From Aureobasidium sp. EXF-3400 (lineage: Eukaryota > Ascomycota > Dothideomycetes > Dothideales > Saccotheciaceae): a stretch of DNA of 64,000 bases. A program made the position numbers and the translations under genes. Positions within the stretch are counted from its first letter, which is position 1; each line of letters opens with the position of its first letter. The stretch spans positions 1-64,000 of the forward strand of contig SWBL01000235.1 in assembly GCA_024195585.1 (NCBI GenBank). The letters run 5' to 3'. Shown here one piece after another: positions 41,650-61,656 of the stretch. The notes beneath the pieces are model-generated. The model saw nothing but the letters and a program-made list of their open reading frames with translations. It was not told the DNA's origin and made no database searches.

Positions 41650-44600
41650 ATGCCCCAAAATATGGCCCTGTCGCCCTCTGAATCAAGTGCAAATGCACGA
41701 AACATCCTGGGTCGTCCCGCGCAGAGGCAGTATTCCTGGATGCAACAATCCCCCGTTCTCTCACAGCCGCCTCTTCGTGCTTCTGGCAAACACCACCAGC
41801 GACAAGCTCCGGGCCTAAATGTCACTGACTCGACCACGCCTCAATGTGCTTCTCCCACGACTGTACAGGCGCAATCTCCTTCTTCTCAGGAAACCCACCA
41901 CGTCCAGGGAAACGCTGCGTCAAACACTGAGTCCGAGATTTCCAATGCGAGAAACTTTCTACCATCGCCCACTCCTAGTGACCGCCATGATAAGTCTCCG
42001 AGCCTGGCCACTGCTCATCAACCTCTCAGCGAACCTGCTGCTCGCCAATCTCCAAGCCAGCCTGCTCTTCATCGCGATCCAGCTCAACCTACCGTCCGCG
42101 TGACCGGAAACAGACATGTCTCTGCCACCTCTTCCTCCCGGCAACCCACTGGACTCGCCCCTGTTCCGCCACCTCCTTCAGCATCAAACACGCCCCCCAC
42201 GCATACCCGGCCTCCTCCCTCTGGTTTCAACAATGCTCCGCCCTTTGGTTCTCAATGGTCTGCCGTGTTCCACAGCGGCGAGTGTACCAAGCGTCTATCT
42301 GACTTCGCCGCGGCTCACGGAAACTTGACCGATGCTGATCTTGAGAGATTGGGTATTCTTTATGATGCCATGCAACAGAATGACTGGTACTTCATCATTC
42401 TGCTCATGCTCCTAGCTTGCTACTCTTTGAATCTGCCATCGCTCCAAGTCGTCCAGGTTCATCTGCCAAAAGACAGCCTTCCCATGTTTGCTAAGATCTT
42501 GGGGGAACAATGGGAAGGTGGAAATTCTTTGAGCCACGAAGTCCAGGTTTTCATAAGCAGCTTCCCTAAGCCTCTAGATGAGTTGAGAGTTTGTTTGACT
42601 GATTCGTCTTTCATGCTGGCCATTCGTCATATCAGCAGTTGTCTTCGTCAGATAACATTGAATCTAGATCGTGTGCTCTCTCAGTGCCGTCAGGCAGAAA
42701 CGCTTCCGACTGTTCATGTAAGTCAAATCGAAGGTATGAACACCACGACTAGTGTTGGCGTTTTTGTCTCAGCCCGCACGATTAGTCCCTGGGACGTGTG
42801 TTTCGATGGGACACCATCCAGAAAGGCATCTCGTAGAGTCGGGTGCATTCGTCTAGCAAAGCCGCGGTGTTCTTACATCGAAACTCCGAAACCGTGCTAA
42901 TTGTACCTTCATATAGGATCTGATCGTGTCACTTGGTATTCGTTCATTGCTGCTCCAACGAGCAACTTTCCGCTTCCTTCTGCGTAACACTTGGGGTTCG
43001 GACAGTGGTCCAATGGCTGAACTCGCTATGCGAGAATTCATGATTGAGCAACAAAGATTCGCAATGGAAGGTGCCCAATCAACAGAAATGCGTGGTCATC
43101 AGCAGAACGTTTACCGCACCATCTTTCACCAGCACGTACGTTCTGCTCACTTTCCGCACACTCACTCGAATCAAAATACAAATCCGGCCAACATTGTCCC
43201 GAGCACCTCTACAATTGCCCAGCAGCCCACACCTGCCCCAACTGGCGCCGCTACAGGTAGGACGCAGTCACAGTTACCTCATCTAGGTCAGCACCACATA
43301 CAACCATCACATCAAGCTCAGACGCCAATACCGATCGGTGCAGGGTTGCAAGTCGCTCAGATGGAGGCGCAGAGGCATATGCAACGGGAGCTTCAAATGC
43401 AGCAAATGCGTGCTCGAGCTCAAGCACAGTCTCTGGCACATGCACACGCAGGCCAGCCGCCATTTCCTGCCCACTTCCAAAATCACTCACAAGGTGCTTC
43501 ACTTCCACCTTCGGCCTTCTTCCAGAACCCTGGCGGTACCTTCCCAGCTCGGTTTCAGCAAAGTGCAACTGCTCTACCGCATCAGCCCCTGCGTCAAAAC
43601 AACACTGCACTTCACGACGCAGCTCAGATGCAGGCATTGATAGTGTACCAACAAGAGATGCTTCCGCAACAGCCCATCCTGCCTTCCAATTCTCCATCCG
43701 CTCCCTCACTTGCAAGTCAGATGCCTCGTCCACGGCAACAACGATCAAACCCACCACCTCGTCTATTCTTTCCTGGACCAAATCCCGCTGTCCCCCAGCC
43801 TGCACATCCAGATTACCGTCGATCGGCACTTCATCAAGCTCATCTGCGTAGTCCTGTTCTTGTCCCAAAGAAGCTCGACACCCTAGCCTCGTCTAACGAC
43901 CTCTACCGCCGCGTTGCTGGCTTTGCTCTTCCGCCTCACAGGCTGACGACCAAGCCGGTTCAAGAAATTTCCTTCCAGCTGCCACCACAGGCTATCAGTC
44001 GACTTCTGAAAGTCAAATTGAGCCCTGACGGCGATCCTCCAGTTGAAGTAATCGACACCAACTCTTTGATGCTAAGACTCAGATGCTGCGAGGTCGCGCC
44101 ATCTCAGCCCCTTCCCACGGAGAACAAATGGGTTCTTCTCGATGGCAGCTGGCCAGTCCAAGCTTACTTCGCGATCGATAAAACTCCGCTCGAACCAAGA
44201 CGCAAATTGCATCATGGCAGATACCTACCCATCGACATCACGCATTGCATCAGTTCGGAGACCAACAAACTTGTCGTAAGAGTCAACCGGTCCAAGTATG
44301 ATAAATCGCCTTTCAACTACGCAGTCGCTATCGAAGTCGTTGGCTTTGACTCTCGCAACGGTATTAAAGAGGCCTGCATGAAGCGTCTTGTTCCTCCCGA
44401 ACAGATTCTGGACTCGATCAAGAAGTCTCTGACCAGCCATGACGACGATCTCATTGTACAGTCAAACTTCACCTTACAACTTTACGAACCCTTCTCCAAC
44501 GCCAAGATTTTTGACTTGCCAGTTCGCGGTTTTGATTGCCTGCACAAGCAAGCTTTCGATCTCGACGTTTTCTTGGATACTCGACTTGAGCAACAGTCCC

Positions 44601-60067: not shown

Positions 60068-61656
60068 CTACTGAGGGCCCTCAATGATCATCTTGATACC
60101 CTTGGCGGCATGAACGTCCTTGAAGGCCTGTTCGGCATCCTCGAACTTGACACGGCCTGTGATGAGCTCCTTGACGCTGAGGCTGCCAGAAGTGATGAGA
60201 TCAACGGCCAGCTGGTAGTCGCCGGGTCCGTATCTGAAGCTGCCCTAAAAAAAGAATCAGTAACGTATTCCATGCTAAAAAAGAAAGAAGAGTCTCCCAA
60301 CCTTTAGATTAAGTTCTTTAGCGCACATAGCCTTACGAAGGTACAGTTAGCAAAATATCAAACGTTGGTTGTGAGAACACCACGACTTAGCTGAACGAAT
60401 GTATTCAGCTCTACGAGATGCCGTCCCGGATGGCGTTTCATTGAAACACCCATTCCAGAGACTGCTCGTGCAGGCTGAAACAAACGCCAGTACTAGTCGT
60501 GGTGTTTGTACCTTCGGTTTACATACCATGATAGGAAAGTTGATGTCTGGCTTGCCCATGCCACCCTGGACATAGGTTCCACCGGTTCTCAGTGCGTGAA
60601 TAGCTGTCTGAATGCAGGGCTCGGCTCCAGTGGCATCGATGATGGCATCGGCACCCAATCCAAGGTCGCACTCGTCTGTGAGGAGCTTGGCGTTCTCCTG
60701 AGCGCCAACTCTTTGCGAGCGGAAAACGTGTGTGGCAGCGTACTTCTGGGCGAACTCGAGACGCTCCTCGTTGATGTCCACAGCAACAATCTTGGTGGCA
60801 CCGAACGACTTTGCGACAGCCATGCAGAGCAGACCAACAGGACCTGCGCCAAAGACAACAACGCTCTGGCCAGGCTTGATGTCAGCCTGTTTGGTGATGT
60901 GTACACCAACACTCAATGGCTCGACCAATGCAGCCTCCTCAAGAGGAACGTGGTCTGCGACCTTGTAACAGAAGTCTTCGGGAAGACGGTAGTACTTGGC
61001 AAGAGTTCCGTCGTAAGGAGGGGTAGCTGCAAAGGCCATGTCAAGGCAGAGGTTGTACTTGCCCTCTCTGCAATGTGGGCATCTGCGGCAAGGAACACCA
61101 GGCTCCATGGTGACACGGTCGCCCTTCTTGAGTGTCGTCACTTTGTCTCCCACTTCCTCGACAATGCCGGCCGACTCGTGGCCCAGAACCATGGGGGCCT
61201 TGACCACGAAGTCTCCAATAGCGCCATCTGTCCAGTAGTGCACGTCGGATCCGCAGATACCAGTGTACTTGACATTGACGATAACATCGTAAGGATCTCT
61301 GAGTTGTGGAACAGGACGGTCCTCAAACTTGACGTCGTAGGGCTTCTGAAGAACAAATGACAAGTTCTACACATCACACACCGTCAGTTTCCGTTTTGCA
61401 ATAAACCAGGATGCATGGCTGTGAAGTGAGAACTTACCTTTGCATCTGCAGGGTTGACTTCTTGCACGGAAGCCATCTTTGGTGTTGCTGTGGCGGAGAA
61501 ACTTCTTGAGGCCTTCTTGGAGTTGAGGTGGTATGCGACGGCGGCGCAGCTACCACAGCTTCTTGTAGACTGAAGCTTGTATGTGGTTGAAGAAGGAACG
61601 CGAAGGGACGAAGCTCTGAGGCTTCTCTGGAGACCTGACTTGAAGACTTGAGACAT
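60068..61656 (-). CDS. XYL2: Xylitol dehydrogenase (D-xylulose reductase)
   Basis: A zinc-dependent medium-chain dehydrogenase that oxidises xylitol to D-xylulose with NAD. Exons on the minus strand are 61656-61438, 61366-60527, 60331-60302 and 60244-60068. In the 421-residue numbering: catalytic zinc ligands C111 and H136-E137, structural zinc cysteines C166, C169, C172 and C180, cofactor loop GAGPVG at 246-251, and Asp in AVDINEERL for NAD preference. The usual xylitol dehydrogenase start is Met61 (61476), giving 361 residues. The longer start adds a basic, Ser-rich leader ending SRSFSATATPKM that resembles a mitochondrial presequence. Sorbitol dehydrogenase activity is also possible. Its third intron boundary is set by an introner-like element, and the next exon is only 30 nt. 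Confidence 0.93.
60332..60526 (-). mobile_element. Introner-like element serving as intron (copy B)
   Basis: The 195-nt intron of the xylitol dehydrogenase gene, GTATGT to CGTAAG on the minus strand. It is homologous along its length to the intron at 42718-42916, including shared blocks AACACCACGACTAGT and GGCATCTCGTAGAG. Inverted repeats are perfect: outer CGAAGGTAC/GTACCTTCG (60508-60516 and 60336-60344) and inner AACACCACGACT/AGTCGTGGTGTT (60495-60506 and 60376-60387). A small internal hairpin GTTTCAATGAAAC is also present. A GCTAAC branch-point-like site lies just before the outer right arm. It is in sense orientation to the host gene, opposite on the chromosome to copy A. Confidence 0.85.

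Follow-up and report, generated by a model that had tools for sequence, protein, structure and literature searches.

A family of introner-like elements with a covarying near-terminal stem in Aureobasidium sp. EXF-3400

Two long introns of Aureobasidium sp. EXF-3400 that resemble each other but interrupt different genes raise the question of how homologous introns came to reside in unrelated hosts. Both are located in the window, i.e. the whole stretch of 64,000 nt of contig SWBL01000235.1 analysed here. One is an intron of 199 nt on the forward strand (42718..42916, with GT at 42718 and AG ending at 42916) in a gene labelled MIZ-type, the other an intron of 195 nt on the reverse strand (60332..60526) in a xylitol dehydrogenase (XDH) gene, where it is followed by a 30-nt exon and a second intron of 59 nt (60243-60301, reverse strand). 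Both were assigned to family A of the elements described below, the former on the basis of pairwise alignment, genome search and an intronless copy, the latter, as a member of a young subgroup, on the basis of sister copies, hairpin, Pfam match and empty site. The original prediction, made from the letters alone, had claimed homology from donor to acceptor, and a full-length alignment of the two introns bears this out: the same base stands in 151 of 203 columns, 33 transitions, 11 transversions and 4 gap columns were counted, and the score of 97.5 compares with a maximum of -11 in 300 shuffles. The common sequence blocks named in that prediction were recovered in both introns, the differences are mostly transitions as it had stated, and both copies are in sense orientation to their host genes. 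Its claim of unusual length is roughly right, the 44 ordinary introns having a median of 56.5 nt, but these came from a heuristic scan whose pattern allowed only lengths of 42-110 nt. A scan of the window for other matches to the two introns yielded nothing beyond 13-nt matches, and an Rfam scan of the window gave 0 matches above the gathering score. The XDH splice junction falls within a Pfam ADH_zinc_N match; for a 440-aa piece around the junction of the other gene no Pfam match was found, and 'MIZ' is the label given by the original prediction.

A genome-wide census was performed in the assembly to which the window belongs (53.4 Mb, 717 contigs). The MIZ intron, the XDH intron and a family-B copy gave 25, 29 and 36 matches, respectively, each count including the query itself and split pieces. 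Merging resulted in 41 places and, since four of these are contig-end halves of just two elements, in 39 elements of families A and B (A/B). Match counts are lower bounds, and the family comprises at least 39 elements. Two additional intron queries revealed no new place beyond the 41, and a divergent copy used as query returned 7 matches, all already known. Allowing up to 3 mismatches, a 23-base 5′ motif was found at 27 places, all within the census (reversed-pattern control: 0), and a 21-base 3′ motif at 58 places (control: 3). Thirty of the 3′-motif matches lay outside the census; 16 of these were examined and correspond to 14 extra loci with related or shortened introns, in all of which GT (in one case GC) and AG borders flank the common ends, while the remaining 14 of the 58 matches stand outside the orientation and context counts given below. 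Full or nearly full-length A/B copies (28 in number) were aligned over 222 columns, in which GT and CTAA are invariant (28/28) and AG terminates every row (28/28). The tree of these copies separates A (13) from B (15). The check proposed in the original prediction, a search of the whole genome for further full-length sense copies, thereby turned up 39 A/B elements with 28 of full or nearly full length.

Six sisters of the XDH intron, 91-95% identical to it, reside in other genes, the nearest differing at 10 of 195 sites (~5%). The youngest pair, located in a gene with an alpha-L-arabinofuranosidase domain and in an RTA1 gene, shows 2 differences over ~193 nt, each of the two copies having been joined from two contig-end halves. 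The assembly breaks inside these two most similar copies (ends of contigs C194, C232, C201 and C686), and young copies may be under-counted.

Two sister families with the same ends as A/B were recognised, family C (four copies read, 173-180 nt) and family D (six copies read, 107-121 nt). Comparison of family-D bodies with those of A/B or C gave no significant match, and in family-C bodies only a stretch of 20-30 nt of A/B was matched (best E 0.001). Motif matches on contigs C121, C148, C57, C258, C459 and C77 looked at first sight like a palindromic DNA transposon; read in the opposite direction, each has a donor next to its 5′ repeat, while its 3′ end carries a branch point followed by an acceptor, and the MITE reading of family D was rejected. 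Among the family-D loci from these six contigs, L120 alone has a Pfam match across the junction. In addition, shortened copies of 57-127 nt with workable borders were found, including one of 89 nt in a fibrillarin gene, where the junction lies within the Pfam match.

Whether the introns were gained or lost was addressed with second gene copies within the one assembly. A protein search revealed a second XDH gene on contig C160 that is uninterrupted and 94% identical over 288 aa. At the DNA level the two genes share 88% identity over 1086 aligned bases, and both the introner and the 59-nt intron are absent from the C160 copy. The match also covers the promoter, downstream DNA and what looks like an upstream intron, whose position was judged by eye; this rules out a retrocopy and identifies the C160 gene as part of a duplicated block. 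For 38 of the 39 elements (L051 was left out) the exon flanks of 80+80 nt were joined into a probe, and 40 of 72 candidates were scored. A single match spanning the junction on a foreign contig was obtained for 15 probes; together with XDH, an intronless copy is present for 16 of the 38 testable elements, and with the 40 of 72 candidates scored, 22 of the 38 probes were without an empty copy. The intronless copy of the MIZ gene (C160:40140-40299) has a matching junction; a distance of 17.4 kb separates it from the XDH match, the same spacing as between the two genes in the window. The original prediction had required relatives devoid of these introns, and they were met with in the form of 16 intronless second gene copies in the same assembly, both window introns included.

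None of the 16 empty-site alignments shows a net length change at the junction, although those of GH51 and L002 contain compensating one-base gap pairs 3-11 nt away from it. No target-site duplication longer than one base was found at any of the 16 empty sites. If the first exon base is G, duplication of a single base is indistinguishable from none; at the non-G sites L011, L012 and L003 there is no duplication at all. A [D1,2] stwintron starts with G|GT, and its removal as one canonical intron leaves an intronic G in the exon. Here, removal at GT/AG reproduces the intronless copy without an extra base in 16/16 cases, and the [D1,2] stwintron reading was discarded. Between the two XDH genes, 39 of 108 fourfold sites (36%) are different; since the XDH introner is only ~5% away from its nearest sister, gain and not loss is indicated.

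Many genes (contig C235 with C160 and other contigs) are present in two diverged copies with 80-89% DNA identity in the flanks, which suggests a hybrid genome, duplication long ago or a sample of mixed origin. The second gene copies could come from another strain or species mixed into the assembly and would in that case still serve as orthologues. A confinement of introners to one subgenome found no support, as on contigs C158 and C121 an empty site occurs together with an introner belonging to a different family. The 30-nt exon between the two XDH introns looks far more diverged than the remaining gene.

The coding context of the elements was assessed by Pfam searches after splicing at GT/AG. 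Of 38 A/B elements tested (L090 being left out), 27 have the junction within a Pfam domain match (10/10, 8/10, 4/10 and 5/9 in the four batches, the nine including one repeat and one element with the downstream side only); L065, counted among the 27, scores under the Pfam cut-off. No clear junction-spanning match was obtained for 11 of the 38, among them the marginal and uncounted L008 and L039. When Pfam and empty sites are combined, the coding sense is clearly supported for 32 of 39 A/B elements. Ten of the extra loci were tested as well, and seven have a junction-spanning match, at or over the cut-off for L113, L116, L118 and L120 and below it for L112, L114 and L117; across the junctions of L111, L115 and L121 no Pfam match was found. 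Reading across the splice in the short flanks of the 14 extra loci, 13 have at least one open sense frame and 8 of 14 an open antisense frame as well. Among the copies read, which do not include 14 of the 58 3′-motif matches, none was recognised as antisense or intergenic.

Host genes encode, besides xylitol dehydrogenase, sugar and peptide transporters, glycosyl hydrolases, short-chain dehydrogenases and a cofilin. MFS transporters account for 10 of the 39 A/B hosts, and several other hosts act on carbohydrates. The chance of 10/39 is 2e-7 to 2e-3 at assumed MFS backgrounds of 3-9%, a background bounded only by first-look counts of 595 and 884 stretches that were made exon by exon and overlap, and the transporter bias is put forward only as a lead. 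When the flanks (up to 1.4 kb on each side, E up to 1e-4) were compared among loci, matches were limited to the two introns of one GH3 gene, to L017/L068 and L048/L068, which are sugar-transporter paralogues, and to a short upstream stretch of L003/L040; the prediction that the host exons are unrelated holds outside these few cases. No two of the host loci stand to each other as such second gene copies. In the sugar-transporter genes L017, L068 and L010, introners of different subfamilies lie within ~12 codons of one motif (judged by eye), a possible hotspot of parallel gain.

The insertion sites of family B share a further property. In 21 of 22 copies the downstream exon begins with G, a count that becomes 22 of 23 once a copy whose acceptor was assigned by hand is added; when the shortened B-like copies L111 and L113 (both G) and L117 (T) are included, G occupies +1 in 24 of 26. 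The corresponding values are 9/16 in family A and 15/44 in the heuristic set of ordinary introns (B versus A, Fisher p 0.0045). For all seven empty sites of family B that have an acceptor of the element type (L040, L022, L017, RTA1, L090, L016 and GH51) the intronless copy already has the G, so the base looks like a target preference rather than a part of the element. At L088 the filled copy has A and the intronless copy G.

Apart from the splice sites, the elements have a common architecture. In the MIZ intron, the 5′ arm of a near-terminal stem (CGAAGGTAT, 42729..42737, forward strand; columns 14-22 of alignment A1, with covariation counts) faces a 3′ arm (GTACCTTCA, 42903..42911, forward strand; columns 206-214), and the CTAA at 42897..42900 (forward strand), invariant in 28/28 aligned copies, is from its position and consensus the putative branch-point core. 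In the XDH intron, all on the reverse strand, the arms of this stem, assigned from alignment and covariation counts, are CGAAGGTAC (60508..60516) and GTACCTTCG (60336..60344), the likewise invariant CTAA is located at 60347..60350, and an inner helix is formed by AACACCACGACT (60495..60506, columns 24-35 of A1) and AGTCGTGGTGTT (60376..60387, columns 151-162). The 3′ arm of the near-terminal stem sits between branch point and acceptor. The predicted fold of the XDH intron has -80 kcal/mol (z -7.8); that of the MIZ intron has -61.3 kcal/mol (z -2.6) and retains only the outer of the two stems. Over the 28 copies the mean fold z is -3.8, with 23 below -2 and 5 not.

As the bodies of A and B differ and the consensus from RNAalifold alone was weak (-6.6 kcal/mol), pairing was counted directly in the two helices. 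In columns 14-22/206-214 and 24-35/151-162, 93% of cells are paired compared with 28-49% when the arms are slid against each other, a percentage favoured by construction because the helices were partly read from the sequences. Stronger evidence comes from double (compensatory) changes, which occur in 12 of 21 pairs versus 2.3 in shuffles, with 0 of 500 shuffles reaching 12; related sequences can exceed shuffles without structure, and the double-change measure is the least affected by this. G-U cells (38, in 17 pairs) outnumber A-C cells (19, in 12 pairs), counted as sequences and not as events, which points to a fold belonging to the sense RNA. A near-terminal stem of at least 9 bp is present in 27 of 38 full-length A-D copies versus 5.5% of 760 shuffles, and in 1 of 4 shortened copies. 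Even the shortened intron L117, with 61 nt, still has the matched change GAAAGTAC/GTACTTTC. Since the stem is under 9 bp in 11 of the 38 and the z score is not below -2 in 5 of the 28, the fold is not needed for retention of the intron. The folds predicted for families C and D again include an inner hairpin, and the stem varies in step (GAAGG/CCTTC, GAGGG/CCCTT, GAAAG/CTTTC). Three features had escaped the original prediction: the conservation of the RNA fold, the existence of C and D as sister families sharing the ends of A/B, and the occurrence of shortened copies.

In view of the 39 A/B elements and the 16 intronless gene copies with matching junctions, the prediction of an introner-like family is upheld, and the two window introns are almost certainly recently gained copies of such elements. 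Judged by sequence, the elements appear as copies in unrelated genes that bring their own splice signals and CTAA, were gained without change of exon length and have a fold kept by compensatory changes; their splicing is presumed from the matching junctions. As a whole, the material is best explained by a complete spliceosomal intron that multiplies itself and is put back via RNA, a reading to which we assign a probability of about 85%. The RNA-based route of copying taken by itself is probable rather than firm; sense insertion, unchanged exon length and the possession of own splice signals fit it better than cut-and-paste. In such a scheme the near-terminal stem (CGAAGGTAC with GTACCTTCG) would draw donor, branch point and acceptor together in the transcribed intron, and with most of the body folded away an intron of 195 nt could be spliced like a short one. 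The excised compact intron RNA would persist and return to a new gene sequence as an intact intron, most likely either by reverse splicing into a transcript or a transcribed DNA strand, or by capture at a break of the intron, as RNA or as cDNA, and subsequent copying into DNA.

Families A/B, C and D have in one genome a common terminal cassette (donor, near-terminal stem of 9-15 bp, branch point, acceptor) together with different bodies and stems that change in step. On this basis it is tentatively proposed that the cassette and not the whole intron is the mobile unit. The copying machinery would then recognise an RNA clamp, the bodies would be exchangeable and one family would in addition prefer a G at +1, which would amount to a specific RNA signal for intron gain in fungi.

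The same features can also be approached from the DNA side, with a non-autonomous MITE-like transposon, provided with near-terminal inverted repeats and splice sites, that would move as DNA by cut-and-paste and whose insertions in genes would survive by being spliced out. Inverted repeats close to both ends and internally deleted copies are indeed present, the G at the first downstream base of family B is readable as a one-base duplication, and many introners elsewhere resemble DNA transposons according to the portion of PMC9860276 considered here. We nevertheless regard a DNA transposon as unlikely, given that none of the 16 empty sites has a target-site duplication of more than one base, that no antisense or intergenic copy was recognised among those read, that the repeats lie inside donor and acceptor instead of at the very ends, and that a 3′ arm placed between branch point and acceptor is what would be expected of a structure related to splicing.

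Far less probable still is that the introns are old, were lost from the second gene copies by cDNA recombination and resemble each other through gene conversion. The two neighbouring XDH introns are absent together from the second copy, and joint absence of neighbouring introns is a known pattern of cDNA-mediated loss. Such a history would, however, demand 16 independent precise losses with no common case, and it is at odds with sisters in unrelated genes that are 91-95% identical, the closest with 2 differences over ~193 nt, beside a fourfold divergence of 36% between the XDH copies. Copying of exons and intron together as duplicated gene segments can draw on the several hosts that are sugar-transporter paralogues and on flanks of L017/L068 that are 69-83% identical over short stretches; yet the host flanks are otherwise unmatched beyond the GH3, transporter and L003/L040 cases, the transporter copies occupy different positions and the junctions fall in many unrelated Pfam families. 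By the comparison of flanking sequences this explanation is refuted for nearly every pair, and there is hardly any probability left for it.

The preferred reading, an intron multiplying via RNA, places the family in the fungal introner-like superfamily, where it is closest to the symmetrical introns of Hypoxylaceae/Xylariaceae. In the available text of PMC8469720 and PMC12403724, symmetrical stwintrons have an inverted repeat of 9-10 nt, one arm of which follows closely on the donor and the other lies between branch point and acceptor, insert seamlessly without target-site duplication, give rise to cropped derivatives of ordinary length and show variants of the 3′ repeat that stay complementary to the 5′ repeat; the present family is like them in repeat placement, seamless insertion, cropped derivatives and matched repeat variants. 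As far as described in the same portion of PMC12403724, they are mostly [D1,2] twin introns, and the 5′ repeat of NTIRE-10 is GUAUAAAAAC. The present element is instead a single canonical GT-AG intron that leaves no extra G after joining at GT/AG, and its arms are CGAAGGTAC/GTACCTTCG and variants, with the repeat CGARGGUAC. The portions of PMC8469720 and PMC12403724 at hand report no exon bias, whereas family B has G at +1 in nearly all copies. The architecture is thus closest to the NTIRE elements of PMC12403724, so far as they are set out in that text, and sequence and intron type differ.

The introner-like elements (ILEs) of the Dothideomycetes Fulvia fulva, Dothistroma and Zymoseptoria are described in the part of PMC4457414 drawn upon here as near-identical full introns in unrelated genes, with several families per species, recent gains and degeneration towards ordinary introns. 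Seamless integration and predicted stable structures of ILEs are quoted in the available text of PMC8469720, in which the words 'compensatory' and 'covariation' do not appear. The present family resembles the Dothideomycete ILEs in near-identical introns of unrelated genes, several families, recent gains and degeneration; the likeness is one of description, and kinship with them may be suggested by analogy only. Added to that picture here are the compensatory changes, the terminal cassette across different bodies, the empty sites in one assembly and the +1 G of family B. With the DNA-transposon introners of algae and other organisms, as presented in the portion of PMC9860276 used, the family has in common that multi-copy introns contain inverted repeats; it differs in having no target-site duplication of more than one base, in carrying both splice sites and in being in sense wherever tested. 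Ascomycete introner families are characterised in that same portion of PMC9860276 as being without TIRs or TSDs, and the present family differs from this by its near-terminal inverted repeats.

How new introns originate has long been an open question, in which the introners of ascomycetes are an outlier to the DNA-transposon model. The assembly analysed here combines copies only 2 differences apart, filled and empty gene versions, a covarying fold and families with common ends. Graded shortened copies down to 57-65 nt suggest a path from introner to ordinary intron. One of them, the 57-nt copy L113 (C268:46040-46315) in a PAS-domain gene, apparently uses a GC donor. A single GH3 glycosidase gene (C175:18575-19228) contains two introners, a nearly full one and a shortened one, that belong to different families, and at L124 (C77:26860-27110) a family-D introner and one resembling the B-type copy L070 lie ~30 nt apart.
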